Source: Thalassolituus maritimus
GTDB lineage: Bacteria > Pseudomonadota > Gammaproteobacteria > Pseudomonadales > Oceanobacteraceae
Reading direction: 5' to 3'
DNA: 64,000 nucleotides
NCBI RefSeq assembly: GCF_900156675.1
Contig: NZ_FTOH01000003.1
Location: forward strand, 248,001-312,000
Shown: piece by piece, positions 1 through 19,297 of the stretch
Position numbering within the stretch: the first letter of the stretch is position 1
Layout of the letters: each line of letters begins with the position of its first letter
The notes under the pieces: model-generated
Told to the model about the DNA's origin: nothing
The model's input: only the letters and a program-made list of their open reading frames with translations
Database searches by the model: none
Translations under genes and position numbers: made by a program

Positions 1-955
1 ATGAAGCCCCGAGTGCTTTTAGTAACCCAATTTCAGCCCGGCGCTGAGCAACGCCGATGAGTGTCATATTCATAATTAAAACCCCGGCGACTAACAGGCT
101 GATGGCCGCAATACCGGCGACTGCAAAGGTCATGATTAACAGTACATTATTAAAGGCGCTGAGCAGGCTGTCGGGTGTAACAATCGTAATATCCAGTTGG
201 CCGTCGTGGCGTAGCTTCATTTGCTGCTCAACGGCTGTGGTCATGGCTGGCACAGCATCAATGTTCTCAATCTGAATCATTACCCTGAACAGACCTTCGG
301 TATTAAAAATCTGCATGGCGTTATCTACGGGCAAGATCAGAGCGTTGCTCATATCGAATCCGAAACCCGTTCCCGAGTCAGTGAGTACGCCCGTCACGCG
401 GCAGCGATAATCCGCGACATTTATCCATTGCCCCAGTGCGCGTTTCGGCCCGAATAATTCATCCCTCAGGGTTGCCCCTAAAATACATTCCGAGCGGCTA
501 CGGCTACCTTCGCGAGTGGTAAACGCCTGCCCCTGGCTGAACGCGAGATCACGGATGCTGAAGAAGTCCTGAGTTGTCCCGAGAACTAAACTATCGCGGC
601 TCAACCCTGAAATGCTCAAACGGCTGGTGCCCACAACGATAGGTGCAATACGCTCGACATCGGAAATTCGCATGAGGCTTTGGGCATCTTCAAGCGTGAT
701 ATCACGGGTGCCTTCGCCGGTTAATGGCGGTAGGCCGCCGGTGGTTTCTTTTCGGCCGGGCAGCATGACTAACACATCGTTGCCGAGGCTTGCGAACTCG
801 GCCATCACGAACCGTCGTCCGCCTTCGCCAATGCCGGTCAGCAACACCACTGCCAATACACCAATGGCCATAGCCACTAACTGCATGGTGGTACGAAAAC
901 GCGTTCGTGTCAGTGAGCGCAGGGTAAAGGTGAAGTGATCCTGCAGGCGGATCAT
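1..955 (-). CDS. MacB/FtsX-type ABC transporter permease (3' end outside window)
   Basis: The reverse strand is open from an ATG at 955 to the window edge, giving 318 codons without a stop. The protein begins MIRLQDHFTFTLRS, has one hydrophobic segment near residues 22-42, then a long extracytoplasmic region (about 45-265), and regains a hydrophobic segment near residues 275-300 followed by a QRRAEIGLLKALGAS stretch typical of FtsX-like permeases. This is the MacB_PCD plus FtsX layout, with the last membrane segments cut off by the window. Its ATG overlaps the stop of the upstream ATPase gene by 4 nt (ATGA), so translation is probably coupled. It should form the inner-membrane channel of the exporter encoded with the next two genes. 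The substrate cannot be told from the sequence. Confidence 0.85.
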   Translation of the reverse strand, partial: MIRLQDHFTFTLRSLTRTRFRTTMQLVAMAIGVLAVVLLTGIGEGGRRFVMAEFASLGNDVLVMLPGRKETTGGLPPLTGEGTRDITLEDAQSLMRISDVERIAPIVVGTSRLSISGLSRDSLVLGTTQDFFSIRDLAFSQGQAFTTREGSRSRSECILGATLRDELFGPKRALGQWINVADYRCRVTGVLTDSGTGFGFDMSNALILPVDNAMQIFNTEGLFRVMIQIENIDAVPAMTTAVEQQMKLRHDGQLDITIVTPDSLLSAFNNVLLIMTFAVAGIAAISLLVAGVLIMNMTLIGVAQRRAEIGLLKALGAS

Positions 956-1680
956 AGGGCGGGCTCTTCTGATGAGCTAATGGCGAACGTATCGTCGCTG
1001 ACGATGGCGCCGTCCACCATACGTAAACGTCGCTTTGCGCGCTGGCCGAGTGCCATGTCGTGCGTAACCACCATTAAGGTAACGCCCTGAGCATTTAATT
1101 CTTCCAGCAGCTCAACTACGTCGGCGCCCGAATGAGTATCAAGATTACCGGTAGGTTCGTCGGCGAGCAGCAGCGGTGCCTGCATAATAATGGCGCGGCC
1201 TATCGCCACGCGCTGGCGCTGTCCGCCAGACAACTGCTCTGGTTTATGATCGGCGCGCTCCGTTAACCCTAAGCGTTGAATAACAGGTGCTAAGCGTTTA
1301 CGGCGTTCTGCTGGAGGAATACCTGCCAGCACCATAGGCAGCTCCATATTTTCACGGGCACTCAGGCGCGGTACTAAGTGGTAAGACTGAAACACAAAAC
1401 CAATGTGGTCACGGCGATAACCCGCGCGCGCTTCCTCGCTCATGGGTACGGTGTCTTCGCCCGCGAGCCAGTACTCGCCCTCATCGGGCACATCCAACAG
1501 GCCCAGCATATTCAACAGTGTCGACTTGCCTGAACCAGACGGCCCCATCACTGAAATATATTCGCCTTGCGTAATATCCAGATTGATATCATTGAGCGCA
1601 TGCACTGTCTGATCACCGAGCTGAAAGCGACGATGCACTCCGCGAACTTTAATGGCCCCAGTCTTCATCGCTTCAGTCAT
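952..1680 (-). CDS. ABC transporter ATP-binding protein, MacB/LolD type
   Basis: A 242-residue nucleotide-binding subunit with Walker A GPSGSGKST, Q-loop FVFQSYHLVPRLSA, signature LSGGQRQR, Walker B LLLADEPTGNLD and H-loop VVTHD. This full set indicates an active ATPase of the LolD/MacB exporter class, which powers export or extraction of substrates from the inner membrane. The ATG at 1680 is preferred; a TTG two codons further up (1686) is possible. The gene starts inside the last codons of the fusion-protein gene (stop at 1673) and its stop overlaps the permease start, so all three are one operon. Confidence 0.9.
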   Translation of the reverse strand: MTEAMKTGAIKVRGVHRRFQLGDQTVHALNDINLDITQGEYISVMGPSGSGKSTLLNMLGLLDVPDEGEYWLAGEDTVPMSEEARAGYRRDHIGFVFQSYHLVPRLSARENMELPMVLAGIPPAERRKRLAPVIQRLGLTERADHKPEQLSGGQRQRVAIGRAIIMQAPLLLADEPTGNLDTHSGADVVELLEELNAQGVTLMVVTHDMALGQRAKRRLRMVDGAIVSDDTFAISSSEEPAL

Positions 1681-2824
1681 GGACAATAGTATCCAGAACG
1701 CGCACGGTGCGGCCGTCTGTCAGGTCGCTCTGGCCGGGTTCGTTAATGATCAGATCATCTTCACTCACACCGCTTATGACTTCACTCCAGGTCCAGTTAG
1801 TCAGGCCCAGTTCTACCTGCTGCTTAACGGCGTGACCGTCTTTGGCGAGCATCACATGATCCGTATCGATTAATAGCTCGGTAGGAAGCCGCAGGGTGTT
1901 ATCAGAGGTTGCCGTAATAACCTCGATATCGGCGCTGTAACCAATCAACAGATGGGTGCCGTCAGGGAGTTCGTTGAGGCGTACATCAACATCCACCGTA
2001 CGGGCCTGTTTCTCTTCATCCTGAATATAAGGCGATATACGCGAGACATGGCCATCAAAGGTGCGGTCGCCGAAGGCATCCAACGTAACGCGCACAGGCA
2101 TATCCAGTGCGACCTGAGCCGCATCTACTTCATCAATTGGCGCCTGCACGTAAAAACAATCGGGGTTGATCAGATCAATGGCGGGTGGTGTGGCCACGCC
2201 CGGAGGCGATGGTGTGGCGTATTCACCGATCTCGGCGTTCACCTCAGCAATAATGCCAGCGAAGGGAGCGCGTAACTGGGTTTGCGCAAAACGCGCTTTC
2301 TGCAGATCCAGACTGGCAGACGCCTGAGTAATCAGGGTTTCTTGCTGTTTGCACGAAAGCTCACTGATGGTTGCGGCGGTTTCGGCGCGGTCTAACTGCT
2401 CAGAAGATGCCATCTGGCGTTTATGAAGATCATGAATACGGCGCTCTTCACGCTTATCCGATTGTGCCTGCGTACAGGTAGCCTCGTGCGAAAGCCTGGC
2501 AGTATCCAGCTGGGCCTCTGCAGTCGCCAGAGTGGCACGAATGTCTTCGTTCCAGAGCTCCATCAAAGGCGCGCCAGCTTCAACTTTATCGCCCTGAGCA
2601 ACATAAAGAACACTGACCTGGCCACCAAGAGGTAACGACAAGCGCGAACGCTGGCAAGCCTTAACCGTGCCTGAGCGGGTATTGGCGACACTGGCTTCAA
2701 CTAAGCCGACAGAGGCCTGCGAGACCGTGACATCAAGCGGGCTCTCAGGCCAGTAGCGCACAGCGGCGACACCAGCGCCAATCAATACGATAGGAATCAA
2801 AATTTTAGGAGAGGGGAGACTCAT
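1673..2824 (-). CDS. MacA-like periplasmic membrane-fusion protein (HlyD family)
   Basis: A 383-residue adaptor. The chosen ATG at 2824 has a GAAGG ribosome site 6 nt upstream and gives MSLPSPKILIPIV, one N-terminal membrane anchor (about residues 7-24) and then a periplasmic domain. A lipoyl/barrel segment (GQVSVLYVAQGDKVEAG) is followed by a helical hairpin of about 90 residues rich in Ala, Glu and Gln, and by the second half of the lipoyl domain (LRAPFAGIIAEVNAEIGEY). This is the usual order for RND and ABC adaptor proteins. The open frame runs further upstream, but that part has no adaptor-like sequence. First gene of the operon with the ATPase and permease; together they suggest a MacAB-type exporter. 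No outer-membrane channel gene is visible here. Confidence 0.85.
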   Translation of the reverse strand: MSLPSPKILIPIVLIGAGVAAVRYWPESPLDVTVSQASVGLVEASVANTRSGTVKACQRSRLSLPLGGQVSVLYVAQGDKVEAGAPLMELWNEDIRATLATAEAQLDTARLSHEATCTQAQSDKREERRIHDLHKRQMASSEQLDRAETAATISELSCKQQETLITQASASLDLQKARFAQTQLRAPFAGIIAEVNAEIGEYATPSPPGVATPPAIDLINPDCFYVQAPIDEVDAAQVALDMPVRVTLDAFGDRTFDGHVSRISPYIQDEEKQARTVDVDVRLNELPDGTHLLIGYSADIEVITATSDNTLRLPTELLIDTDHVMLAKDGHAVKQQVELGLTNWTWSEVISGVSEDDLIINEPGQSDLTDGRTVRVLDTIVHD

Positions 2825-3079
2825 AATGGCCTTCAGGGTCAGTGACCGTGGATTTCCGTATACGCCATAACATATAGAGTGGGCGGAGGAAGGGCAATGA
2901 TGTAGGTCAGGGTATATGAAATGAATCGGGAGCTGATATGGCGTCGCCTCAGGCACTTTGCATATAGCGCTAAGGTCGGTATGCTCGGTATATTGAGAGG
3001 AAGCTTGGCACCCAAGCACAGGCGTAATCGCGAGCTAAATAGCCAAGTGTGCTCGTATGTCGGAAGGGAGATCTAAGTT
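2825..3079. other. Intergenic region between exporter operon and accessory patch
   Basis: No convincing gene on either strand. It must hold the promoter for the minus-strand exporter operon and possibly one for the plus-strand accessory genes, but no clear -35/-10 pair could be picked by eye. Confidence 0.4.
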
Positions 3080-3172
3080 ATGGAAGATACTTCAATGCAG
3101 TCACTTAATTACTTCCGGAAATCTCGAGAGAATGTTCTAGGGAAATGCGCAGGCGGACTAATAAGTTGGTAA
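3080..3172 (+). CDS. Possible 30-residue leader peptide or small protein
   Basis: An ATG at 3080 is preceded by a good ribosome site (GGAAGGGAG, 9-nt spacing) and opens a 30-codon frame (MEDTSMQSLNYFRKSREN, then an end in GGLISW). It stops 18 nt before the DUF2806 start. The peptide resembles nothing known to me. The strong ribosome site and position suggest a leader or a coupled small gene, but a short frame like this can occur by chance. Confidence 0.25.
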   Translation: MEDTSMQSLNYFRKSRENVLGKCAGGLISW

Positions 3173-3190
3173 GTAAACAGGGGGAGGGGG

Positions 3191-3487
3191 ATGGATTTTC
3201 CAGGTGAAACGCTTCTCATAAAAATGTGGGAGACGCTCGCTGAAAAGGGTATTGGTTCTTTGTTGGCGCCGTGGCACGAAAAGCGCATGGGTGAAGCGAG
3301 GTCTCAAGTTCGGAAACAAGAGATGCTGGTTATTGCTGAAGCGGAGAGAGAGGCTGAGGCGATAAGGTCTGGTGAAAGAGGTGTTCTAGCCAATAGTGAC
3401 GTTCAGCTTCTTGAGGGGCCAAGAAGATGCCACTCTGTAGCAGGTAGAAAGGAACCTACTATCGATCTATCGATCTATCGAAGCTAG
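3191..3487 (+). CDS. DUF2806-like protein, N-terminal part, broken by frameshift
   Basis: Strong purine-rich ribosome site (GGGGGAGGGGG) directly before ATG 3191. The 98-residue product begins MDFPGETLLIKMWETLAEKG and contains the amphipathic, Glu/Arg-rich helix RKQEMLVIAEAEREAEAIR, which I recognise as the start of DUF2806 proteins (function unknown, normally about 300 residues or more in one chain). The frame ends at a TAG just after an 8-bp tandem repeat (3459-3481). The rest of the family's sequence continues in another frame from about 3482 to 4227. Removing one repeat unit fuses the two frames exactly (residues ...EPTIDLSKLAVAMRNDEF...). The gene is therefore either phase-variable in the OFF state, recently inactivated, or affected by a sequencing error. 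Family assignment is from memory. Confidence 0.6.
   Translation: MDFPGETLLIKMWETLAEKGIGSLLAPWHEKRMGEARSQVRKQEMLVIAEAEREAEAIRSGERGVLANSDVQLLEGPRRCHSVAGRKEPTIDLSIYRS
3459..3481. repeat. 8-bp tandem repeat (CTATCGAT x 2.9) at the DUF2806 frameshift
   Basis: The unit CTATCGAT occurs at 3459-3466 and 3467-3474, and its first seven bases again at 3475-3481. Loss or gain of one 8-bp unit shifts the frame by 2 (or restores it): the N-terminal frame starting at 3191 and the C-terminal frame are offset by exactly 8 nt modulo 3. Such an array is prone to slipped-strand mispairing. Confidence 0.9.
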
Positions 3488-3495
3488 CGGTTGCC

Positions 3496-4227
3496 ATGAG
3501 GAATGATGAGTTTTCAGAATCTCTAAGAAAGGAAAGGAATGTCGCGATGTCGATTCATGTGGCGGAGGACGTTCTTTCGCAAGATGTTCAAGAGCCATCG
3601 GATAGAGATGTGGATGATGATTGGCTTTATTTCTGGCGAGATTATGAAGGCAAAGTTTCAGCTGAGGAATTACAAGAGCTTTGGGGAAGAGTGCTAGCAG
3701 GTGAAGTGAAAAACCCAGGAACATACTCCGTAAGGACATTGGATTTTTTAAAAGTCCTGTCAAGGGAGGAAGCAGAGCTAATAAGTAAAGCGGCGCAATT
3801 TGTTATAGATGGCCGAATATTTAGAGGTAAAGACGAGTTTTTAGAAGAAAGTGGACTGATTCTTCCTCAGATGCTACATCTCCAAGATATAGGTGTGCTT
3901 TCTGGGTTGGAATCCCTTGGCTTTAAAGCTACCTATACGTCTATTAAACCTGATTGCTTTTACTTGGGCTTGGTTGCTAGTAACAGGATATTGCTGATCG
4001 AAGGCGAAGATACAAATAAAGAAGCGGAAGCAGAAGTCTATTTGGTGACTAGCATAGGCCGTGAGGTCTTAAAATTAGCAAGCTTTAAGGTCAATGAGGG
4101 CTACTTAAAGTCAGTTGCCAAGGACTATGTCAAAAAGGGGTTCAAGGTTAGTGTTGCGGATTGGACTTGGGTTTCGGATCGAGAAGGGCGTTACTCTAAT
4201 AGAATCGAAATAACAGATAATGCTTAA
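3496..4227 (+). CDS. DUF2806-like protein, C-terminal part (second half of split gene)
   Basis: Codes for 243 residues from the first ATG in this frame, although that ATG has no ribosome site, so it is probably not an independent start. The sequence has a conserved-looking DDDWLYFWRDYEGKVS - LQELWGRVLAGEV - TYSVRTLDFLKVLS region (about residues 36-85), which I associate with the DUF2806 core, followed by a mixed alpha/beta C-terminal part ending NRIEITDNA. No enzyme motif or membrane segment is seen. Together with 3191-3487 it would make a chain of about 343 residues, as expected for the family. A second unknown gene follows 46 nt downstream on the same strand. Confidence 0.6.
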   Translation: MRNDEFSESLRKERNVAMSIHVAEDVLSQDVQEPSDRDVDDDWLYFWRDYEGKVSAEELQELWGRVLAGEVKNPGTYSVRTLDFLKVLSREEAELISKAAQFVIDGRIFRGKDEFLEESGLILPQMLHLQDIGVLSGLESLGFKATYTSIKPDCFYLGLVASNRILLIEGEDTNKEAEAEVYLVTSIGREVLKLASFKVNEGYLKSVAKDYVKKGFKVSVADWTWVSDREGRYSNRIEITDNA

Positions 4228-4273
4228 CATGGAGAAGTAGTGGGTAGGTTCATTTTCTTGCAGAAGGACTAGA

Positions 4274-5074
4274 TTGATGGGATATGCAGCGTTAACAACA
4301 CCGTCCAGAGCAAAGAGGGCATCACTTTTCTTTGATGAAGTTCATATTGTTGTTGCCGATCCTTGGTGTTCGAAAGCTGATGAGGAAATTCTCAACTCAT
4401 TCTATTTTGAGCCAAATGTTTCTGACTCTGACATGCCTATTACGGTGCTTAAACGTTATCAACAAGGCCTTCATGAAGGAAAATATCGAGAAATGGTTCT
4501 GTCTGACATAGCAATATCTAATAATAGAGTTGTCCCTATTATTGATGTTTTAGCTCTCACTTACCCCAAAGATGATATTAGAAACCTTGGCGTTGGATTC
4601 TGTGCAACGCTTGATAACCTTCCGACAATTGATGAACGATTATTAGAGTGGGAGCAAGCCTTGGAAATACGATCTGACACGGACAGTTTAAAAAGAATTC
4701 GTAGGCTCAGAGGGTGGTTTCTCACCGGGTTAGCAAATATGGGGGTGGATGAGGCCTCAGATGTTCTTTCTTTGGCTATTGAAGATTATGAAAACTCATT
4801 GAAAAAGCATGGTGTTGCTACCGTTATTGGGTGTATGTCAATTTTAGTAAAAAAAGAACAGTTGATTGGCACAGCAAGCGCGACTTTAAGTGCAGGTTAT
4901 TTCGGTGGAGAAGTAATGGCCGCACTCACCGCTAGTGGAATGCTCTTGGCAAATGTTGCTCTATCAATAGCAGAAAAAAAATCTGAACTAATTGAAATAA
5001 AAAATATTGATCCTAATGGTGTAGGTCTTCTTTTGGATATAGAGGAGAAATTATCAATCACAGTGAAAAACTAA
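4274..5074 (+). CDS. Unknown protein, partner of DUF2806 gene
   Basis: A 266-residue protein I do not recognise. It begins MMGYAALTTPSRAKRASLFFDEVHIVV, a charged N-terminal part with an FFDE motif. Its C-terminal third has a roughly 45-residue Gly/Ala-rich hydrophobic stretch (about residues 195-240, GTASATLSAGYFGGEVM and SGMLLANVALS) that could be a buried core or a pair of short membrane-inserting helices, then a charged tail. Codon use is AT-rich compared with the core genes around it. A second ATG one codon on is an alternative start. It lies 46 nt after the DUF2806 gene in the same direction and just before an IS remnant. Co-occurrence suggests a two-gene accessory module, but no function can be assigned. 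Confidence 0.6.
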   Translation: MMGYAALTTPSRAKRASLFFDEVHIVVADPWCSKADEEILNSFYFEPNVSDSDMPITVLKRYQQGLHEGKYREMVLSDIAISNNRVVPIIDVLALTYPKDDIRNLGVGFCATLDNLPTIDERLLEWEQALEIRSDTDSLKRIRRLRGWFLTGLANMGVDEASDVLSLAIEDYENSLKKHGVATVIGCMSILVKKEQLIGTASATLSAGYFGGEVMAALTASGMLLANVALSIAEKKSELIEIKNIDPNGVGLLLDIEEKLSITVKN

Positions 5075-5095
5075 CAATTAAAATAACACAGACGA

Positions 5096-5470
5096 TGATC
5101 TTCCCCCGATAAAACGGACATCAAAGTCAAACTGACGAGGTGTCCAATGCCAAAAATATACTCAGCCAAGAAAGATCTAGCAGTGTTCGAACGAGTTTAA
5201 AGTTAAAGCGGCTCAGCTAAGTCTGATAGAAGGAATTCAGGGGCAGAAACTAGCGAATACTCTCGACATTCATTTATGCTGTCACGATGGCGAAAAGAAT
5301 ACCCTGAAGGCAGGTCGTGGTAGATATGCCTAAAGATTTATCAAAGGGACTCCTAAGAAAGAAAATGAAATCTCGAACATTAAGAATCTTGATGCAGAGA
5401 ACTAGAAGCTCAAACATGAGTTTGATCTACAACGCATTACTTCTGAATGAGAATACCTTCTAGTCATATT
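5096..5470 (+). pseudogene. Decayed IS3-family orfA transposase remnant
   Basis: From an ATG at 5147 the translation gives MPKIYSAKKDLAVFERV, stop, then in a shifted frame EFKVKAAQLSLIEGIQGQKL - NTLDIHSFMLSRWRKEYPEG, and later K-rich segments broken by further stops. This is the helix-turn-helix start of an IS3-type OrfA (EFK...AV...A..L.I....L..W..E pattern) with several frameshifts and stops. A TGATCTTCCCCCGATAAAACGG stretch near 5096 looks like the outer IS end. No orfB or opposite end is visible before the next gene, so the element is truncated and inactive. Confidence 0.6.
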
Positions 5471-5602
5471 CCGAATGGGCAGTACTAAGAAAGTGAGTGA
5501 CAATAAGGGCCAGATTGGATCGCTAAGCAGGGTCTGCTTGATCCTGATTCGGGTCCTGATCGAAGGTTGTTGAACTCACGGTACTCTCAAGGAGGAATGT
5601 AT
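5471..5602. other. Non-coding stretch after IS remnant
   Basis: No gene seen. May contain further decayed IS sequence; it ends in the strong GGAGG ribosome site (5591-5595) of the HNH gene. Confidence 0.4.
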
Positions 5603-6082
5603 ATGCCAACACGTGCAGAGCTGTTAGATGCAATCATTAATGCAAGAGGGTGTCAGTGCCAAAGCCCTAATACCGCCGTTAATATTAGAAATTGTGGCCG
5701 CTTCAGCTGGGTCAGTCGCAGCTGTCTGGATGCAATGGGGCTAGCTCCCGAGCCAAGTCACTGCCCGGTTTGCAATGGCACCGGCCCGTGGCAGCTGGAC
5801 CATATGAACCCATGGCGGCAATATATTGTTACTGTGGGGGCTCCACACGTAGCAGTTGATCCTACACACACTAACTATATGATGCTCAAAAAACTGGGAA
5901 GAGCACTCTATAATGACCCTCAGAATCTGTGGTGGCTTTGTGCATCCTGCAATCGCAAGAAAACGGACTACGTATACGACACGGCGGCTCAGCTAACAGA
6001 TCTGACTAACTCGCAAGTGCCTTCTGGCGTGAAAATGCGCGGCCCCGCAAATTTATGGAAGATTGTCTCGCCTGCGAAATAA
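5603..6082 (+). CDS. HNH endonuclease-type protein with Cys4 zinc motif
   Basis: A 159-residue protein. ATG 5603 is chosen because GGAGG (5591-5595) sits 7 nt upstream; the ATG at 5597 is too close to it and the frame open further upstream is not supported. The centre holds CPVCNGTGPWQLDHMNPW and then NLWWLCASCNRKKTD: two CxxC pairs, the LDH histidine and the N...C..C.R arrangement of HNH nucleases, where the cysteines hold a structural zinc and the LDH region binds the catalytic metal. The N-terminal 60 residues carry extra Cys (GCQCQSP) and an uncharacterised fold. It sits alone between an IS remnant and an SGNH hydrolase gene. Possible roles are restriction, mobile-element or toxin nuclease; no immunity partner is recognisable. 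Confidence 0.7.
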   Translation: MPTRAELLDAIINARGCQCQSPNTAVNIRNCGRFSWVSRSCLDAMGLAPEPSHCPVCNGTGPWQLDHMNPWRQYIVTVGAPHVAVDPTHTNYMMLKKLGRALYNDPQNLWWLCASCNRKKTDYVYDTAAQLTDLTNSQVPSGVKMRGPANLWKIVSPAK

Positions 6083-6150
6083 TAGAGTCTTATTGAATAA
6101 CACTAACTTAGTAGTGGAATTATAAAAACATCAGAAAAGGACAGTAGAAA

Positions 6151-7071
6151 ATGGGAATGATAAAAATTCTCGCGCTGGTATCATTTTTTATGATTCCGTC
6201 TATGAGTGCACAATCACAAAGTGCGTCTGGTCTTCAGATCATAAGGCCTCTGGGTGACTCAATCACGTTTGGCTATAGTAGTGATTTCTCCGCTACGGGA
6301 CAGAACTGTTATAACGCACAGGTATGGTGCCTTTATCCGAATGTAAAGTACGGCGGTAATTTTGGTGGAGGTTATCGAGGTATTCTGACCTGGCTTGCTA
6401 TTAGCGAGAAGAACAGAGTTCTTAAACCCTTCACAACAGTGGGTTTTCAGAGTGGCGGTTCATCAATCCAACAATGGGTGACGAACAGTCAACTACATGA
6501 TGGCTACCCTGGTGCGCGAACTGATCAGCTGGTTCCGTACTCTATGATGTTTATGCCACCGTTCCCTGAAACACCCGTAACTTTCATCCACCTTGGAACG
6601 AATGACATTACTCAAGGGCACCTTGACGACAAGCTGGATCAAAACACGATAGTCGATGCTGCTATAGCTAATCTCTCTACGATCGTGAAAAACGTGGTTA
6701 ACAACACCAAATCAAAAGTTTATTTGGCAAAGATAATCAAGTTTTCTATATCTAAGTATTGCCCAGGCCAAACCACTAGCAAGTGCGCAGATTTCTCTCT
6801 GGCAAACCCGATTGTTGAAGCCTATAACGAAAAAATTGTGAAGGAATTTTCGAGCAACAAGAACGTTACCATAGTAGAAATGGATAATATTCTTGAAGCC
6901 AGCGACTATAGCCCGGATGGGGTTCATCCTGCATTGTCTGGTTACTTTAAAATGGCTTGTAAGTGGGCTGAATCGGCAAATATGTTCTTAGACAATAAGT
7001 CATGTGATGATGTGTCGGTTGCAGATCTTACGTCACTGCCTCCAGTCGCTACCGTGCTACCATATGATTAA
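6151..7071 (+). CDS. Secreted SGNH/GDSL hydrolase
   Basis: A 306-residue protein with a cleavable signal peptide (MGMIKILALVSFFMIPSMSA, cut likely after SMSA or QSQS). The SGNH blocks are in order: IRPLGDSITFGY (block I, nucleophile Ser in GDS), a GG region around YGGNFGGGYRG, HLGTNDITQG (block III Asn) and SPDGVHP (block V, catalytic Asp and His). This matches extracytoplasmic esterases or acyl-hydrolases acting on lipids or acetylated polysaccharides. Several Cys residues (QNCYNAQVWC, YCPGQTTSKC, KSCDD) may form disulphides after export. AAAGGA ribosome site just upstream. It is a single gene 68 nt after the HNH gene, within the accessory patch; the substrate is unknown. Confidence 0.8.
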   Translation: MGMIKILALVSFFMIPSMSAQSQSASGLQIIRPLGDSITFGYSSDFSATGQNCYNAQVWCLYPNVKYGGNFGGGYRGILTWLAISEKNRVLKPFTTVGFQSGGSSIQQWVTNSQLHDGYPGARTDQLVPYSMMFMPPFPETPVTFIHLGTNDITQGHLDDKLDQNTIVDAAIANLSTIVKNVVNNTKSKVYLAKIIKFSISKYCPGQTTSKCADFSLANPIVEAYNEKIVKEFSSNKNVTIVEMDNILEASDYSPDGVHPALSGYFKMACKWAESANMFLDNKSCDDVSVADLTSLPPVATVLPYD

Positions 7072-7120
7072 TTGAACATAAAACAGAGTGCAGAGTCTCT
7101 GCACTCATTGGGGAGTCATA

Positions 7121-7627
7121 TTGAGTATAACCATCCGCAAAGAGCAATCAGGTGACGTAGAAAGTATCCATCGTGTGACGGTTTCTGCATTTCTTGATGC
7201 GCCACATACTGATCATACGGAGCAGTTTATTGTTAAAGCGCTTCGTGATTCGGGCGTGTTATCGATCTCTTTGGTTGCTGAGATCGAAGACAGCGTTGTA
7301 GGGCATGTGGCTCTGTCTCCTGTCACCATTAGCGATGGTTCTGATCACTGGTATGGCCTGGGCCCAATTTCAGTTCACCCCAGCAATCAGGGGCAGGGCG
7401 TTGGCGCGATGCTTATGAATGCAGCAATTGAAGAGCTGAAACGTATCGACGCCAAAGGCTGTGTGTTACTCGGTGATCCCGGTTACTACCATCGTTTTAG
7501 TTTCAAACCTGAAGAGGGTCTGGTACTTCCTGATGTACCTGCGGAGTACTTTCAAGCTCTTTTATTGCAGGGAAGCATCCCTCAAGGCATTGTCGCTTAT
7601 CATGATTCCTTCTCTGCAACGAGTTAA
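7121..7627 (+). CDS. GNAT-family N-acetyltransferase, YhbS-like
   Basis: A 168-residue protein starting at TTG 7121 with a GGGGAG ribosome site at 7110-7115; no in-frame ATG fits better. The acetyl-CoA loop is [21 protein letters not shown] (Q/R-x-x-G-x-G/A as NQGQGVGA), preceded by a beta strand VGHVALSPV and followed by [16 protein letters not shown], which is the arrangement of the YhbS branch. It should transfer an acetyl group from acetyl-CoA to an amine on a small molecule or protein; the target is unknown. 17 nt before the VF530-type gene, in the same direction. Confidence 0.8.
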
Positions 7628-7644
7628 CAGGCCTGGCCATCTTT

Positions 7645-7908
7645 ATGAAAGAACATAACAAGAATGATCCTCTTCACGGAGTGACTCTCGAAGCCATCCT
7701 CAACCAGTTGGTTGATCATTATGGCTGGGAAGGGCTGGCTAGCCGGATCAACATCAACTGCTTCAAATCAGACCCTTCAGTTAAATCGTCGCTGAAGTTT
7801 CTACGGCGTACGCCCTGGGCGCGAACCAAGGTAGAGGATCTGTTTGTTGGCACTTTCCATTTGGACAGTAAGCATTCAGCCAGTAAGCCAAACCCCTGGG
7901 GTAAGTAA
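7645..7908 (+). CDS. VF530 family (DUF2132) small protein
   Basis: An 87-residue protein with the family hallmark [16 protein letters not shown], the [15 protein letters not shown] helix and the [10 protein letters not shown] end. The VF530/DUF2132 family is known from Vibrio fischeri as a small conserved fold; a DNA-binding role has been suggested by annotation only. The C-terminal 20 residues ([11 protein letters not shown]) are extra. Likely co-transcribed with the acetyltransferase gene, as the gap is short. Confidence 0.8.
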
Positions 7909-7936
7909 GTTCGCTGATTAAAAAAGGAATTTGCCG

Positions 7937-8221
7937 ATGGACCTGTTCAGGATACTTCTCTCAATATGTGTTTTTTGTATAAGCGCGTATCTCGCGGTTG
8001 ATTTGTTCGTGTATGGCTTCAGTCTGCCGGTACTGCTTTTCTGTATCGGTGGTTTTGTCCTGGTGCACTTTCTACTTCCTAAGAAGTCATCGGTTGATGA
8101 GGGCTTTTACGAAATTGTCGACCTCGTACTCGATTTACCTTATCGGACAATAGCGACCATCATTCGTAGTATAGGAAGGTTGTTCCGCGATGGAGATGGT
8201 GGGGTCGATCTGGATATCTGA
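7937..8221 (+). CDS. Small inner-membrane protein of unknown function
   Basis: A 94-residue protein from ATG 7937, with AAGGA 8 nt upstream (a TTG two codons earlier is a weaker choice). Two hydrophobic segments, about residues 5-24 and 28-48, end at LLPKKSS; the cytoplasmic tail contains an amphipathic part (YRTIATIIRSIGRLFRD). No family recognised. It ends just before a strong terminator and is probably the last gene of the acetyltransferase/VF530 unit. Confidence 0.65.
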   Translation: MDLFRILLSICVFCISAYLAVDLFVYGFSLPVLLFCIGGFVLVHFLLPKKSSVDEGFYEIVDLVLDLPYRTIATIIRSIGRLFRDGDGGVDLDI

Positions 8222-8244
8222 TGGTATTTTCTGAATTTTGTATG

Positions 8245-8332
8245 GCAGAGACAAAAAAGCCCGCTTATTAAGCGGGCTTTTCGTTTTAGTCACCACGTCA
8301 AATCATCAGAATCTGATACGCTGCATGCTGAT
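8245..8332. repeat. Direct repeat copy A: duplicated terminator plus 3' end of DUF2058 gene
   Basis: About 80 bp matching 9514-9598 with roughly ten differences by eye, including a one-base gap. In copy B the part after the hairpin codes (minus strand) the last residues of the DUF2058 protein; in copy A that coding part is frameshifted and dead. Homology stops near 8332. Confidence 0.75.
8253..8281 (+). terminator. Rho-independent terminator
   Basis: Hairpin AAAGCCCGCTT - ATTA-type loop - AAGCGGGCTTT with flanking A and T runs, 32 nt after the small membrane protein. The same 32-nt sequence recurs at 9518-9546. Confidence 0.8.
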
Positions 8333-8548
8333 AAGTTTACGAAATTGACTGTCAGTTGGTGGTCAATTAGTATTGAAAAAATTTAATACCGAGAGAGATT
8401 TCTATCTCTTTGAGGCCTGAATGTTAATGGAAGTTATCGGGTTTGATGCCTAGATTGCGACTTGAAATGCTTTAATATTGGGCTGGCTTTTTAAGATTTT
8501 AGTCGATTTTTGTTGAATGGGTTTTAAGGAATAAAACTAAGGATTTTT
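8333..8548. other. AT-rich non-coding stretch
   Basis: No gene on either strand. It probably contains the promoter of the paralogue pair that follows; T/A-rich tracts make a -10 guess unsafe. An AAGGA ribosome site closes the stretch at about 8541. Confidence 0.4.
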
Positions 8549-8944
8549 ATGAATGCGGCAATTAAAAGCCTGACTCCGAAGGTTTTGCGGGATTTTGTAC
8601 TTACTGCGATTCTCAGCCGTTGGGAGGGTGATAGGGACTGGGGGAGTGTTGATGTTGAAATTCGCCAGTTTAAGTATCTAGGTATAGGTGAGTCAAATGA
8701 GCCGATTGAGTTTTATTGTCGTATCTATTCCCGAGAGTGGTTTTCATGGCTGTGTGGTTTTTCCATCAAAGATGTTTGTGATGTTATAGCTAGTTACTTG
8801 GAGGATTCGTTAGATTGCCTCAACTTTCGTTGCGAGGCTGTGCGATACGAGATGAGGAAAGTTCCCGGTACTAATGAATACTCGATTGACCTGGAAATTA
8901 AAATAGTAGATTCAGATAACTATACAGGAAATTTAGGGTGGTGA
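8549..8944 (+). CDS. Unknown protein, first of a paralogue pair
   Basis: A 131-residue soluble acidic protein. It has an N-terminal helix (VLRDFVLTAILSRW), a strand EPIEFYCRIYS, a short W-rich turn (REWFSWLCGF), a helix IKDVCDVIASYLEDS and a last beta hairpin (RCEAVRYEMRK - EYSIDLEIKIV), ending in W. The next gene product has the same order of elements (PVTFQVKLKS, FKEFSLPPSEIVACMNAFFSSL, RMARINYEY - AEISMYCLLEN, terminal W), so the two look like diverged duplicates. No family recognised; no signal peptide or membrane segment. AT-rich codon use unlike the core genes. The size and acidic alpha/beta layout resemble polymorphic-toxin immunity proteins, but no toxin is adjacent. Confidence 0.6.
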   Translation: MNAAIKSLTPKVLRDFVLTAILSRWEGDRDWGSVDVEIRQFKYLGIGESNEPIEFYCRIYSREWFSWLCGFSIKDVCDVIASYLEDSLDCLNFRCEAVRYEMRKVPGTNEYSIDLEIKIVDSDNYTGNLGW

Positions 8945-8977
8945 GTTTGGTTACCTCCATTTTACAAGGAGTTGAAA

Positions 8978-9409
8978 ATGTCGACTGAATATTTTGGTGC
9001 GATTAGCGTGGCGTCTATCGAAAATTCTCTTAATAGAATGTTGTCGGAATTTTTGAATGTTGATGTCGATTCGGCAGATTTTTCAGGATTTTTTGTTTCT
9101 CGATTTGGCTTCTCCAGTAGAGATACGGAGCAGTACCCTGTCACTTTTCAGGTGAAACTAAAAAGCTCTGGAGACTTTAAGGAGTTTTCATTACCACCTA
9201 GTGAGATAGTGGCTTGTATGAACGCATTTTTCTCGTCACTTGATGGAGCAGAAGATACAAGGTTCCGGATGGCGAGAATCAATTATGAGTATCCTCAATA
9301 TGAGGGTGATGCGGAAATTTCTATGTATTGCTTACTTGAAAACACTTCAGACGTTGCGGTTAAAAGGAATAGTACTACCCTGACTGATAGCAGTGTTATG
9401 GCATGGTAA
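8978..9409 (+). CDS. Unknown protein, second of a paralogue pair
   Basis: A 143-residue protein; ATG 8978 has AAGGAG 6 nt upstream (a TTG two codons earlier lies inside that site). Its layout mirrors the preceding product: helix (ENSLNRMLSEFL), strand PVTFQVKLKS, strand-turn-helix FKEFSLPPSEIVACMNAFF, strands RFRMARINYEY and AEISMYCLLEN, and a C-terminal Trp. No recognised family. It begins 33 nt after the first paralogue, so the pair is one transcription unit, followed by the terminator at 9518. Confidence 0.6.
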   Translation: MSTEYFGAISVASIENSLNRMLSEFLNVDVDSADFSGFFVSRFGFSSRDTEQYPVTFQVKLKSSGDFKEFSLPPSEIVACMNAFFSSLDGAEDTRFRMARINYEYPQYEGDAEISMYCLLENTSDVAVKRNSTTLTDSSVMAW

Positions 9410-9513
9410 GCGTTAAAGTAGTTTGTTATCAGCTATTTTGATTAAAGATGGTTTTTCCATCTTATTCAGCAGGCACCTCTAATGCAGAATATTTTATCTG
9501 GTGCAGACATGAA

Positions 9514-9598
9514 GCAGAAAAAAGCCCGCTTATTAAGCGGGCTTTTCGTATCCATCACCACATCAGATCATCAGGAATCTGATACGCTGCATACGGAT
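9514..9598. repeat. Direct repeat copy B: terminator plus 3' end of DUF2058 gene
   Basis: Intact partner of the copy at 8245-8332. It contains the functional stop and last 14 or so codons of the DUF2058 gene. Together the copies bracket the two unknown paralogues. Confidence 0.75.
9518..9546. terminator. Bidirectional terminator between paralogue pair and DUF2058
   Basis: A-run, stem AAGCCCGCTT/AAGCGGGCTT and T-run on both strands, placed between convergent genes ending at 9409 (+) and 9555 (-). Identical over 32 nt to the terminator at 8253-8281. Confidence 0.8.
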
Positions 9599-10097
9599 CA
9601 TCTTCATCCATCTGGCCGTCGGTCTGTTCGGCGATCACGATAAAGTGGCCATCGTCGCGCTCACGGATCTTCTCAGCTACTTGTAGTGGAATCACGGCGT
9701 AGCTGTTGCGATGCGCGATGATCGCCAGCTGGCCTTTTGACAGACGGTCCCATACAGCCTGATCAACGTAGAGGCTTTTTACTTTCTTGCCATCAACAAA
9801 CTGATACTTGATGTCGCCTTGTGCAGCGCTGATCAGGTTGTTGTCGACGAGTTGCTGCACCTGAGCTTTGATGGCTTTTTTCTGGGCTTCTTCGTCGCGT
9901 TGTTTGTTCAGTTCTTTGTCGCGGGCGGCTTTTTCTTTACGCGCTTGCTCCGCTTTTTCGCGGGACTCGTCGGCGTTGTTTTCCTGCCCGGTGCGCTTCA
10001 GGTGTTCCTGGCGCTTCTTTTCTTTGTCGTTTTTCTTCTGCTTCTTGGCGTCGGTTAATCCGAGGCCAAGCAGCTGATCCTGAAGTGACTTTGCCAT
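9555..10097 (-). CDS. yaiL: DUF2058 (YaiL family) protein
   Basis: A 180-residue, highly charged protein beginning MAKSLQDQLLGLGLTDAKKQKK, the typical DUF2058 start, followed by a long Lys/Glu/Arg-rich helical part (about residues 18-75) and a compact C-terminal domain (about 85-180, with LVDNNLISAAQGDIKYQF and AIIAHRNSYAVIPLQVAEKI). E. coli YaiL belongs here and has been described only as nucleoprotein-associated; the biochemical role is unknown. It lies 22 nt after purK on the same strand and may be read through from purEK. A damaged second copy of its 3' end lies at 8283-8332. Confidence 0.85.
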   Translation of the reverse strand: MAKSLQDQLLGLGLTDAKKQKKNDKEKKRQEHLKRTGQENNADESREKAEQARKEKAARDKELNKQRDEEAQKKAIKAQVQQLVDNNLISAAQGDIKYQFVDGKKVKSLYVDQAVWDRLSKGQLAIIAHRNSYAVIPLQVAEKIRERDDGHFIVIAEQTDGQMDEDDPYAAYQIPDDLMW

Positions 10098-10119
10098 TAG
10101 TTCGCCTTCCTTCTGCTTT

Positions 10120-11196
10120 TTATTGCTTAGGCGGCCAGATGCCTTCGGGCATCAGGGCGTTCAGTTCTGTGATGGTGGCGTCGCGTTCTGCATCGGTGCT
10201 GCCTGTCACGGTTACGTGGCCGAGCTTACGGGCAGGGCGAGCTTCTTTACCGTAGGAATGACGGTAGGCGTTGTCGATGCCTTCGGCTTTTTCTGCCGGA
10301 GTTTCTTCGCCGATCACGTTGAGCATAGCGACGGAGGCAAACTTAGGCTCGGTCGCGCCGAGGCTTTTGCCTGTGATGGCCAGCATGTGGTTACGGAACT
10401 GAGAGGCTTCGGTGCCTTCAATCGACCAGTGGCCAGAGTTGTGTACGCGTGGTGCTACTTCGTTGCCAACAAGGCCGTCTTCGGTGTCGAACAGCTCAAG
10501 GGTAATGGTGCCGACGTAGTCGAGGCTTTCTGCCAGCTGACGGATATAGCGCTCAGCCTGTTCAGCTTTCTCTTGTGAGAGTGCCGGTGCAGGGTAGAGG
10601 CTGTAACGCAGGATGCCTTCGTGGTGTACGTTTTCGGTCATTGGGAATACAACGATGTTGCCGTCGCGGTCGCGGCTGGCAATAACTGAGGTTTCGCGCT
10701 CGAAAGGTACAAAGGCTTCAGCGATGAGTTCGCGGTTGCCGATGGAGTTCCAGGCCGGTGCTGCATCGTCTGGTGTACGCAGTACGAACTGGCCTTTGCC
10801 ATCGTAACCTTCGGTCGTGGTTTTCATCACGATCGGCAGACCGAGTTCTTGTACCGCTGTATGAACGTCTTCGAGTGAGTTCACGGCACGGAATTCTGCG
10901 GTTGCGATGCCTGCGTTACGCAGTGCATTTTTCTCCAGCAGACGATTCTGGAAGGTTTTCAGGGCGTTCAGGCCTGGGTAGAGCTTGTCGGCGTGTGGCT
11001 CAAGTAAGGTCACGATGTGCGCCGGGATGTTTTCTGTCTCGTACGAGAGGATGTCGACCGAGGCAATAAATGCTTCCAGCGCTTCGTCGGTGTGAGCGCG
11101 CAGGTCGTACAGTGAAACCTCAATATCCTTAAGATCAGTGATACTGGTTTCTAACATCTGGCCAAGCTGGCCGTTACCTAAAATACCTACTTTCAT
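10120..11196 (-). CDS. purK: N5-carboxyaminoimidazole ribonucleotide synthase
   Basis: 358 residues from ATG 11196 (MKVGILGNGQLGQML); the longer open frame upstream has no family similarity. ATP-grasp enzyme: pre-ATP-grasp Rossmann part with GNGQLGQM, ATP-binding loop MKTTTEGYDGKGQF, and metal/ATP residues in NEVAPRVHNSGHW. It joins AIR, bicarbonate and ATP to form N5-CAIR in purine synthesis. purE lies 19 nt upstream on the same strand, so the two steps are made together. Confidence 0.95.
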   Translation of the reverse strand: MKVGILGNGQLGQMLETSITDLKDIEVSLYDLRAHTDEALEAFIASVDILSYETENIPAHIVTLLEPHADKLYPGLNALKTFQNRLLEKNALRNAGIATAEFRAVNSLEDVHTAVQELGLPIVMKTTTEGYDGKGQFVLRTPDDAAPAWNSIGNRELIAEAFVPFERETSVIASRDRDGNIVVFPMTENVHHEGILRYSLYPAPALSQEKAEQAERYIRQLAESLDYVGTITLELFDTEDGLVGNEVAPRVHNSGHWSIEGTEASQFRNHMLAITGKSLGATEPKFASVAMLNVIGEETPAEKAEGIDNAYRHSYGKEARPARKLGHVTVTGSTDAERDATITELNALMPEGIWPPKQ

Positions 11197-11215
11197 CGGG
11201 ATGTCCGTGCTGCGG

Positions 11216-11710
11216 TTATTCAATAATTCGTGGGTCTGGCTGTGATAATACGGTGTTCTTCTGAGTTTCGCGGAACTCATCAACACGCTTCATCAGGTCA
11301 GCGTCTGAGGTGGCCAGAATCTGTGCGGCCAGCAGACCTGCGTTTTTCGCGCCTGCATCACCGATGGCCAGTGTACCAACGGCTACGCCGCCTGGCATCT
11401 GAGCGATGGAGAGCAGTGAGTCAATGCCGTTCAGGGCGCGGGATTTTACCGGTACACCCAATACTGGCAGTGAGGTCTGGGATGCTGCCATGCCCGGCAG
11501 GTGCGCTGCGCCGCCTGCGCCCGCGATGATGACCTTGAGGCCACGCTCGTGTGCGGTTTTTGCGTAGTCAAACAGCAGGTCGGGGGTGCGGTGCGCCGAA
11601 ACGACTTTGACTTCGTAGTCTACGCCCAGCAGGTCCAACATATCGGCTGCGTGCTTCATGGTGGGCCAGTCGCTCTTGGAGCCCATGATAATTCCGACAG
11701 GTACTGTCAT
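11216..11710 (-). CDS. purE: N5-carboxyaminoimidazole ribonucleotide mutase
   Basis: 164 residues from ATG 11710 with GAGGA 8 nt upstream. Class I PurE motifs: [13 protein letters not shown] (phosphate/ribose loop), VVSAHRTPD (catalytic His) and [11 protein letters not shown]. Moves the carboxyl group of N5-CAIR to C4 to give CAIR. First gene of purE-purK; the 160-nt gap to the next upstream gene should hold the promoter, which may be under PurR-type control, though no operator was identified by eye. Confidence 0.95.
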
Positions 11711-11870
11711 GTCTTGTGTCCTCATGTTTGCGGCGTAACTTCGCGCAAGCGTGCAAAGAAAGCGGCGAATTCTACCACAAGGGGGCGGGGATGGGGGAAA
11801 GGTTCAGGCGTTAAGAAGGGGATGCCAGTGCAGAATGACTGCACTGGCAATGACGATAACCGTCAGATGA

Positions 11871-13700
11871 TCAGAGGCTGAGTTCACCTGCGTCGATTTT
11901 CGCTTCGGTATCGCTGGTCAGCTCGGTGTAATCGCTGTCTTTGCCAACGATCACATACACTGGCTCATCGCCCACTTTATCGAGGTGGTAGGCTTCTTTC
12001 TTGAGCTCCACTTTACGATATTTGAAGGTGCCGGTGACTTCCTGCTGCTCGCGCACGCGGATGAATACCGGAATCTCGTAAGCAGGCATCTTCTCACGAA
12101 CGTGCTTAGACAACGCCGCCCAGTCGAACTCTTCCAGAGGGACAGATGGCGTAATGGTTGCCATGCCCGCACGACCATCGGTGTGAGGGATCTGAACACC
12201 GTATACAACGGCGTGCTCGATGCTGTCGAGTTCCATCAGGATGGATTCAACTTCTGTGGTGGCGACGTTTTCGCCTTTCCAGCGGAAGGTATCACCCAGG
12301 CGGTCTGCGAAGGATACGTGCTTGTAACCCTGGTTATTCACCAGGTCACCGGTGTTAAACCAGCAGTCGTCCTTCTTGAAGACGTTGCGCAGCAGTTTGC
12401 TGTTGGTGGCGTCTTCGTCGGTGTAGCCTTCAAACGGTTGCTTGTCGTTCACCTCGGTGATCAGCAGGCCGCTATCGCCTGGTTGCACCGGAATCATAAA
12501 GCCTTTGTCATCACGCAGTGGTGCGTCTTCTTCGATGTCGTACTTAACGATGTTGTACGAAAGAGGGCAGAAACCCGCGGTTTTATCGAGGTTAAAGGCG
12601 TTGGTGAATACCAGATTACACTCGGATGCACCGTAGAACTCATTGATGTGATCAATGTTGAAACGGTTTTTAAACTGCATCCAGATGTCCGGGCGCAGAC
12701 CGTTACCTACACAAACACGGATCTTGTGCTGGGAGTCAGACGGCTTGGCCGGCGCATTCAGCAGGTAGCGGCACAGCTCGCCGATGTAGCAGAAGCCCGT
12801 GGCGTTGTGGTGACGGATGTCGTCCCAGAAACGTGACACTGAGAACTTACGCGCAATCGCCATACAGGCGCCTGACCCCAGAACTGCAGCCATGGATACA
12901 GTCAGTGCGTTGTTGTGGTACAGCGGCAGAGACACATAAAGAATGTCTTTGCTGCTCATGTTCATGGACGCCAGACCCATGCCCGCCAGTGACTTGAACC
13001 AGCGATAGTGGCTCATCACGGAGGCTTTTGGCAGGCCGGTGGTACCGGAGGTGAAAATGTAATAGCACGGCTGGTGCATTTTCACTTTTTTGGTGGAATC
13101 TGGGTTTTTGTCCGACTGGCCTTCGATGGCCGTCAGGATGTTGGTGTAATGCTCAGGGCATGCAGTTTCGCCGGTGTCACGCAGATAGTGCAGTGACTTC
13201 AGCGAAGCGTCATCGAGATCACCTTCGACCGTCTTAACGTTCTCCAGCATCTCTTCCCCAACGATGATCATCTTTGGCTTTACCAACGTCAGGCTGTGCA
13301 GCAGTACGTCGCCACGCTGACTGGTGTTGATCATGGAGGCAATGGCACCGAGCTTGACGATGGCCAGTACAGAAATCAGGGTTTCCGGGCGGTTCTCAAG
13401 AACCACGGCTACCACATCACCGCTGCCGATGCCCTGAGAGGTCAGATAATGCGCGATCTGGTTCGCTTTACGGTTGACCTGATCATAGGTGTAAGTCACA
13501 TCTTCGTAGCGGATAGCGATGTGTTCTGGGCGCTGGCGTGCGTGTTTCTCCAGCAGAAGTCCGATTGATTTCTCTTTCTCAGGTTTGCTGGTTGCCAGCT
13601 CATACACACCTTTCAGCTTGATCGGAATGCTTGTGGCCTGGCTTGCCAATTGCGTCAGAATATTCGGCAGTGAAACCAGTTTTTCATTGTATTGAGTCAT
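11871..13700 (-). CDS. Long-chain acyl-CoA synthetase, FadD6/FATP type
   Basis: A 609-residue AMP-binding enzyme. Motifs: P-loop YYIFTSGTTGLPKASVMSH (about residues 215-233), an FYGASE-type motif (INEFYGASECN), the FNTGDL hinge region (CWFNTGDLVNN), ADRLGDTFRWKGENV and a C-terminal lid ending in a TGTFKYRKVELKKE stretch with the catalytic lysine region. The pattern with FRWKGENVATTEVE is the FATP/FadD6 branch, which activates long or very long fatty acids. It follows the two acyl-CoA dehydrogenase genes on the same strand after a 107-nt gap with a hairpin, so the three likely serve one beta-oxidation pathway. Confidence 0.85.
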   Translation of the reverse strand: MTQYNEKLVSLPNILTQLASQATSIPIKLKGVYELATSKPEKEKSIGLLLEKHARQRPEHIAIRYEDVTYTYDQVNRKANQIAHYLTSQGIGSGDVVAVVLENRPETLISVLAIVKLGAIASMINTSQRGDVLLHSLTLVKPKMIIVGEEMLENVKTVEGDLDDASLKSLHYLRDTGETACPEHYTNILTAIEGQSDKNPDSTKKVKMHQPCYYIFTSGTTGLPKASVMSHYRWFKSLAGMGLASMNMSSKDILYVSLPLYHNNALTVSMAAVLGSGACMAIARKFSVSRFWDDIRHHNATGFCYIGELCRYLLNAPAKPSDSQHKIRVCVGNGLRPDIWMQFKNRFNIDHINEFYGASECNLVFTNAFNLDKTAGFCPLSYNIVKYDIEEDAPLRDDKGFMIPVQPGDSGLLITEVNDKQPFEGYTDEDATNSKLLRNVFKKDDCWFNTGDLVNNQGYKHVSFADRLGDTFRWKGENVATTEVESILMELDSIEHAVVYGVQIPHTDGRAGMATITPSVPLEEFDWAALSKHVREKMPAYEIPVFIRVREQQEVTGTFKYRKVELKKEAYHLDKVGDEPVYVIVGKDSDYTELTSDTEAKIDAGELSL

Positions 13701-13769
13701 ACGGGTAAGAGTCTCGCTCGAAAGTCCGGAGTGCGACGTTACCGGAAAATTATCATTATTAATACAGCA

Positions 13770-13788
13770 ACGGGGCGCCAGGCCCCGT
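13770..13788 (-). terminator. GC-rich hairpin between acyl-CoA dehydrogenase and FadD6-like gene
   Basis: ACGGGGC/GCCCCGT stem with a 5-nt loop, in the 107-nt gap after the dehydrogenase stop. No strong T-run follows, so it may only weaken read-through or protect the mRNA. Confidence 0.35.
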
Positions 13789-13807
13789 GCTTAGTTTGTC
13801 GTACAGA

Positions 13808-15019: not shown

Positions 15020-15031
15020 CTGTGCTTCTCC

Positions 15032-16333: not shown

Positions 16334-16538
16334 TTTTAACACCTCTTGATGACTCGTTTGAGGAAACACGACAGAGTGAATTTATCCTGTGTCAGCCATT
16401 CTCACATCTTTATTACAGTGGCTGCATTGGCAGCCCTGACCGGACATAACGGGCCGGAATGCCAAAACACAGGGCACGTTTGGGAGTTACGCGGGCACAA
16501 GGTATCATGACCGCAACCAATATCTGCTGAGGATCGAC
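16334..16538. promoter_or_regulatory. Divergent intergenic region (acyl-CoA dehydrogenase / yaaA)
   Basis: 205 nt between divergent genes and therefore must hold promoters in both directions. No clear operator or -35/-10 pair was identified by eye. Confidence 0.4.
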
Positions 16539-17327
16539 ATGCTTACATTGCTTTCACCCGCCAAGACTCTGGATTTTGAGACACCGCCGGTTACGGATCA
16601 GCACAGTCTGCCAGATTATCTGGATGATTCGGCTGAGTTGATCGATGTATTGCGTAAGTATTCTCCGGACGAAATCGGCGCTTTAATGAAGCTGAGCCCT
16701 AAATTGTCTGAGCTGAACGTGCAGCGTTACAGTGACTGGAAGATTCCTTTTCCTGAAGGGGAATCAAAAGCCGCTGTGCTGGCGTTTAAAGGGGACGTTT
16801 ATACCGGCCTCGATGCCGACAACATGAGCAAAGACGACCTGGATTACGCACAGGGTCACCTACGTATTCTTTCAGGTTTGTATGGTTTGCTGCGTCCGCT
16901 GGATCTGATTCTGCCGTATCGCCTTGAGATGGGTACGAAACTTGGCAATGATCGCGGCAAAGATCTTTATGCTTTCTGGGGCGACAAGATCACCGACGCT
17001 CTGAATGAACTCACAGAGCAATCTGGTATCAATACCATCGTGAACCTGGCGTCGAACGAGTACTTTAAGTCGGTGAAGCCGAAGGCGTTAAAAGCAGACC
17101 TGATCACGCCAGTGTTTCGTGATGAGAAAAACGGTAAGTACAAAATTATCAGCTTTTATGCGAAAAAAGCGCGTGGCCTGATGGCGGCGTACCAGATCAC
17201 TCAGCGTATTGATAACCCTGAAGATCTGAAGAAATTTGATGTGGCGGGCTATCGCTTTTCTGAAGAAGAATCGACCGCCACAGAGTGGGTATTTAAACGT
17301 GCAGAGAAGGATGTACCGAATGCGTAA
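16539..17327 (+). CDS. yaaA: Peroxide stress protein YaaA
   Basis: 262 residues, the family length, starting [14 protein letters not shown]. Conserved parts include [57 protein letters not shown] and the C-terminal [13 protein letters not shown]. In E. coli YaaA lowers free intracellular iron during hydrogen peroxide stress and is OxyR-controlled; the fold can bind DNA. The last 8 nt overlap the start of the lipoprotein gene, implying coupled translation. Confidence 0.95.
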
Positions 17328-17916: not shown

Positions 17917-17949
17917 GCTCATTGCTGAACTGGCAGTTCTACCAATAAA

Positions 17950-17971
17950 AAAGCCCGCATAAGCGGGCTTT
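17950..17971. terminator. Bidirectional terminator
   Basis: Stem AAGCCCGC/GCGGGCTT with ATAA loop, A-run before and T-run after, between convergent lipoprotein (+) and aminotransferase (-) genes. Confidence 0.8.
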
Positions 17972-18004
17972 TCTATGAGCGTTGCTAACTGATTGGTTGA
18001 GCAA

Positions 18005-19186: not shown

Positions 19187-19297
19187 TGTACTTTCCTCTA
19201 GCACGGCCACGATGTGTGCCTAAAAAATAGCGGGCCTCAAAATAGGCCCTAAAACAACGTATAATCTTACTGGATTTAGACGTTAACTGGAATCCTC

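Follow-up and report, generated by a model that had tools for sequence, protein, structure and literature searches.

Short direct repeats within open reading frames are known points at which the gain or loss of one unit can throw a gene out of frame. The icaC gene of Staphylococcus aureus carries a 4-nt repeat in which gain or loss of a unit switches the gene, and a repeat variant reverted about once per 45,000 divisions (PMC4117637). For Pseudomonas putida, PMC3485313 describes gains and losses of CTGG in lacI as having prevailed among early mutants. The locus described here resembles these hotspots in having a short direct repeat within an ORF, where a change of one unit shifts the frame (PMC3485313, PMC4117637). 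It differs in that the unit is 8 bp and that the locus is known here from one genome and one length.

Integrons are another close comparison. In attI1, the leader ORF-11 ends at the recombination core and the first gene follows directly behind that core (PMC8876359). Recombination sites of integrons that lie apart from the integrase have been described as attG sites and CALINs (PMC12444791), pieces of attI in unusual places are known as delta-attI cassettes (PMC12901181), and the role of integrons as stores of anti-phage genes is cited in PMC12444791 from 2025 papers. Within the window (the whole stretch of Thalassolituus maritimus DNA analysed, 64,000 nucleotides), a DUF2806 gene split by a repeat stands directly behind an attI region that is homologous to the region beside a divergent intI elsewhere in the genus. 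Like attI1 as described in PMC8876359, this copy has a leader ORF ending at the core and a gene immediately after it; unlike attI1 it is without intI, its core is degenerate, and a recognizable attC is absent after the gene. Like attG sites, CALINs and delta-attI cassettes, the copies in this genus lie in unexpected places, and like the first two most lie away from an integrase, but they span up to ~290 bp of the attI/intI promoter region and several occupy positions common to more than one species (PMC12444791, PMC12901181). We think it likely that slippage duplicated part of a DUF2806 gene docked at an attI lacking its integrase, that this happened recently, that the full-length protein is not made, and that no selected switch is involved.

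The gene runs in two frames, ORF1 and an open frame for the C-terminal part, which overlap by 37 nt. TRF detects a tandem repeat of CTATCGAT with period 8, 2.9 copies and 100% matches, lying within the overlap at the exact frame break. The preliminary description had put the two halves in different frames with the break at an 8-bp repeat, and the ORF calls and TRF agree with it; its limits for ORF1 also hold, but the C-terminal frame is open from 3448, earlier than the position of about 3482 given there. This array is the longest exact one (periods 4–12) in the 441,432-bp contig and the only one with a matched run of at least 15, and none of five contig-length first-order Markov simulations produced an exact array as long. 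The CTGG repeat of lacI numbers three units. A 16-base stretch of the array region, CTATCGATCTATCGAT, occurs once in the source genome and is absent from the 8 other genus genomes searched. ORF1 encodes 98 aa and has a Shine–Dalgarno-like run, GGGGGAGGGG, just 5′ of its start. Its stop codon lies at 3485–3487, and the first ATG of the C-terminal frame, which would give 243 aa, comes 8 nt after it. The codons for EPTIDLS in the window hold CTATCGA twice, a configuration that would favour duplication by slippage in one step. The source genome is a 3.86-Mb draft in 30 contigs (completeness 99.93%, contamination 0.07%), and the window lies within its 441-kb contig.

Table 1. Features of the split DUF2806 locus and its surroundings, with positions in the window
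Feature	Position	Strand	Evidence
Diverged attI-region copy lacking intI; core GGTAAGT at 3168–3174	3049–3174	+	76% to fuller copy
30-codon leader ORF inside attI, stop within core (ORF-11-like position)	3080–3172	+	ORF kept in 22/23 copies
Shine–Dalgarno-like run GGGGGAGGGG before ORF1	3180–3189	+	Sequence
ORF1, DUF2806 N-terminal piece, 98 aa	3191–3487	+	52.7% to L120 (residues 1–93), 55.8% to L118 (1–77)
C-terminal piece with DUF2806 domain, first ATG 3496 (243 aa)	3448–4227	+	Pfam; 58.6% to L118
CTATCGAT repeat, 2.9 units, frame-break site	3459–3481	+	TRF, contig array count, relatives
266-aa ORF, TTG start, no assigned family; probably second gene of the DUF2806 unit	4274–5074	+	ORF call, profile searches
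Possible truncated attC start (AACTAAC...) that overlaps the 266-aa ORF's stop codon	5069–5091	+	Weak, by eye
Decayed multi-copy sequence, which we read as probably an insertion sequence	5096–5428	+	86% to two genome places, 89% to a third over part

When searched separately, the two pieces hit the same intact relatives, each a single ORF. The nearest are ~340 aa long (339 aa for L061, from the same order as the source) and, with identities all below 60%, they do not include the direct ancestor; identities to ORF1 and to the C-terminal piece are listed in Table 1 for L120 and L118, the latter from the Desulfuromonadaceae. Judged by these alignments, the two pieces are one split gene and not two genes. 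A query of genome contigs with the window protein found 114 relatives, and the best 80 of these were taken. Scans of genome contigs and viral contigs with the C-terminal piece found no close relatives, and phage records held two partial matches to the DUF2806 protein.

When the pieces were aligned separately to 32 intact relatives, several of them close kin of one another, with the frame extrapolated through the linker wherever the two alignments stop short of each other, the window had a surplus of exactly 8 nt against 18, the next commonest offset occurring in 3. Where both pieces reach common residues, the surplus is 8 nt in 11 of 13. The surplus of one unit that had been proposed from the sequence thus holds against the commonest state of intact relatives. 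The other 14 of the 32 give different offsets, which we attribute to a linker that varies in length; together with the kinship among these relatives, this speaks against our preferred explanation. The EPTIDLS motif is present in intact L119. The break site is covered by 35 of 36 named loci and interrupted in none of them. The matched part is open throughout in 33 of the 36, and the other three (L117, L139 and L151, all metagenome-assembled genomes) are interrupted downstream of the break site, by a TGA at about residue 110 in L117, stops from about residue 219 in L139 and a frame change near residues 133–148 in L151.

A set of 30 relatives intact across the join was chosen from L117–L152, leaving out L117, L139, L148, L149, L151 and L152. 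Columns shared by at least 90% of these 30 were taken as conserved, and the window keeps 47 of 50 (12 of 13 before the break and 35 of 37 after it). This suggests either that the break is recent or that both parts are still useful; the recent inactivation offered as one option in the preliminary description fits the first. As to repeat number among relatives, for which a comparison had been called, the 8-bp array is present at the break site in none of the 30, and 7 of them have other short arrays near the site, of at most 2.6 copies.

The C-terminal piece passes the Pfam model PF10987 (DUF2806) at 92.4 bits against a cut-off of 24.5, which upholds the family first named for this gene, and falls under the cut-off of TIGR03899 (76.5 against 155.65). 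On these profile scores the window protein is a DUF2806 protein and is not placed in the TIGR03899 equivalog. Both pieces align to full-length members of the family, from which the window gene differs in being split. Taken by itself, ORF1 gave no hit to Pfam, NCBIfam or PADLOC models at E ≤1, and neither piece matches any PADLOC model at that threshold. The best match by sequence among solved structures has an E-value of 0.012, and a Foldseek search returned 448 matches with none at E ≤0.001, so no solved relative was found. In an AlphaFold2 model of L118 (37 sequences; mean pLDDT 82.8), residues 62–67 and 70–93 form a low-confidence linker, with pLDDT below 50 and probable disorder over 70–93, and a helix is predicted at 94–127. 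The repeat maps to about residues 87–95, the end of this linker, and ATG 3496 maps to residue 100. The frame break is predicted to fall in a disordered linker.

We propose the following course of events. Probably by docking as a cassette, the DUF2806 gene would have taken the first place behind the attI copy beside macA, which lacks an integrase. The codons of its linker motif (T-I-D-L-S), containing an imperfect direct repeat, would then have allowed one slipped-strand event to duplicate 8 bp. The resulting frameshift would end translation after 98 codons and leave the full-length protein absent, and the event may well be recent, nearly all conserved residues being still present on both pieces. 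Back-slippage may take place at a low, hotspot-like rate, by analogy with short repeats elsewhere, which makes reversal by slippage possible.

An alternative is that the locus now yields two polypeptides, an N-terminal helical piece ended by the stop at 3485–3487 and a separate DUF2806 domain restarted at ATG 3496. The restart codon is close enough to the stop to make this conceivable and could give a near-complete C-terminal domain, conserved residues are retained on both sides of the break, the repeat lies at the end of the linker modelled as disordered, and integrons offer a precedent for restart by translational coupling in ORF-11 (PMC8876359). Yet no good Shine–Dalgarno sequence was seen by eye before 3496, the ATG falls inside the predicted helix of L118 rather than ahead of it, and none of the 35 named loci covering the site is split there. 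We consider two working products unlikely, yet a rival to be taken seriously. Joining of the pieces by programmed −1 ribosomal frameshifting, for which their overlap stands in a −1 relation, is scarcely credible: none of the 14 in-phase positions examined holds an X XXY YYZ heptamer, and the intact relatives are single ORFs. It is also very unlikely that the third unit arose in assembly or culture and that the gene of the strain is in frame. The assembly is a draft, and everything else in the DUF2806 gene looks intact, as an artefact would have it. However, a 23-bp array is shorter than a single read of the usual sequencing methods, and the completeness and contamination values are those of a sound genome.

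The split at the repeat was originally read as a possible phase switch, a contingency locus in which the array gains and loses units and the DUF2806 protein is on or off within the population. Several features agree with this. The array is real and sits at the exact break, its 8-bp unit is not a multiple of 3, the rest of the gene is well kept, and icaC is an example (PMC4117637) of a gene switched by gain or loss of short repeat units. Among the features associated with SSR phase variation, a non-triplet tandem repeat within the ORF is present (CTATCGAT x2.9), but the array is not kept at the same site in the 30 relatives and the contig is not rich in arrays. Short-unit arrays number 82 in the 441 kb counted, out of a 3.86-Mb genome, against 85–102 in simulations, hence without excess. 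Moreover, 2.9 units are few, and one allele has been seen, in one genome of the species. A phase-variable locus is accordingly quite unlikely in our estimation, and a phase switch under selection is not supported. Of the original reading, the DUF2806 assignment, the break at the repeat, the surplus of one unit and a probably recent loss stand, and the phase switch does not find support. That the gene has no further breaks would fit a working two-piece gene or a switching gene as well as it fits a fresh duplication. Taken together, the split looks like an ordinary accident, possibly reversible, and not an evolved on/off switch.

The gene that the favoured slippage duplication would have struck lies behind a copy of an integron attI. 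The core of the attI copy departs from the GTTRRRY consensus; GTTA is present at the core in 18 of 23 copies, those that differ being the window copy, L039, L031, L045 and L052. The same macA-side copy is present in two sister species, where the next gene encodes a DUF4062 protein (G001) or GmrSD_N (G008) in place of the DUF2806 protein, and the flanking homology of the window ends at 3181 against the former and at 3103 against the latter. Behind the DUF2806 gene no attC is recognizable by a motif-and-pairing script, which works without a covariance model and makes this weak evidence. Over 2901–14000 the script gave one candidate only, at 12245–12360 inside a host gene, and none with arm pairing. 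The decayed multi-copy sequence occupies the place where an attC would be expected. The 266-aa ORF has no relative in the 92 other genomes, plasmids or fetched loci compared, and Rfam gave 26 matches over window positions 1–20000, none at the gathering score. The DUF2806 gene and the 266-aa ORF probably form one unit that stops at the decayed IS-like sequence and is likely to have arrived as an integron cassette.

Some further observations concern this neighbourhood. Matches to the first bases of the 5096–5428 sequence also lie near attI copies in G008 (C23, C20). A direct repeat of ~80 bp with a terminator-like hairpin (8253–8332 and 9518–9598) flanks two ORFs at 8549–8944 and 8972–9409; at that place G008 and G001 have one copy of the repeat and no block between, and the block looks inserted. 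The block holding a VF530-type DNA-binding protein gene (7645–7908) is kept beside macA in three species, with differing genes around it.

The attI copy of the window is one of many. Counting the window copy, the sequence at 3049–3174 is found in 23 places, spread over 7 of the 9 genomes of the genus. An unbroken intI adjoins two of these copies (G000 C21, G008 C23) and a broken intI a third (G001 C31), each arranged divergently as at an attI. By their upstream flanks the 23 copies sort into 11 positions, one being the intI locus, and 6 of the 11 (5 of them without intI) are common to two to four species, which hold different genes behind them. In G006, a two-gene cassette stands behind the intI–attI junction and closes, by eye, with a typical attC, and attC sites also occur behind attI copies in G001 (L039) and G002 (L046). 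Candidates for attC in L030, L049 and L058 were rejected by eye as chance palindromes. A leader ORF that begins at the same start (GTG in L043) has 26–42 codons in 22 of the 23 copies and 12 codons in L031. Its consensus resembles MEDSS...NLERVSQDK.ARTLISC, the ORF mostly ends at the recombination core, and its variability by codon position (0.149, 0.165 and 0.206) has a mild skew only. Separately, two species were noticed to have the same first gene (110 aa) behind attI copies that occupy different positions (L038, L040; G000 C19, G001 C31), as if it had moved between copies.

Across the family, matches to the attI region at E ≤0.001, some of them short, occur in 17 of 44 genomes and 3 of 8 genera. 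G023 (L214–L221), a single-contig genome, carries a single integrase that passes the cut-off; of its eight attI places, one is beside this integrase and seven are solo. By motif search, attC-like sites stand behind the intI-locus copy and one further copy of the eight; that six of the seven solo copies have none speaks for relics or for a type of site that the script misses. No report of dispersed, solitary or multiple attI copies was found in the open-licence literature within the wordings searched; DUF2806 is named in two papers of that literature.

Ten proteins behind nine attI copies were compared with PADLOC models, and seven match at 1e-10 or better, a share biased towards defence by hand-picking of the larger or defence-like proteins. 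The seven are Hachiman HamA, HamB, two GmrSD_N, PDC-S19, PDC-S32 (AbiJ_NTD4) and an OLD/AriA-type ATPase; of the remaining three, the L043 protein matches weakly, a DUF3800 protein barely and a DUF4062 protein not at all. For the DUF2806 relatives, 131 of 147 neighbours were scanned; among the 16 omitted were the five at L146, short ORFs and the N-terminal portion of the L117 gene itself. The neighbours include no constant partner, in that no Pfam family occurs in more than 3 of the 131; PADLOC at 1e-10 marks some of them as defence genes, with at most 2 members per family. This company suggests that the DUF2806 gene may be a defence-type accessory gene. One relative, in Luteimonas sp. BDR2-5 (L178), lies within an array of five attC-like sites.

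These observations make us lean, by a little, towards a reading in which, in this bacterial family, one integrase serves many attI sites scattered over the chromosome and the DUF2806 gene is one docked gene that slippage has just turned off. The reading builds on copies of up to ~290 bp of the attI/intI promoter region and on the leader ORF kept in the genus, and under it the shared positions would hold different, often defence-type genes. The dispersed attI copies are a more interesting lead than the split gene. The split itself illustrates that, when ordinary codons give rise to a non-triplet repeat, an accessory gene can be inactivated in a single, possibly reversible step. If one integrase does serve many attI copies, each docked gene could be first behind a promoter and not deep in a silent array, which would be a different way of running an integron as a store of accessory and defence genes.
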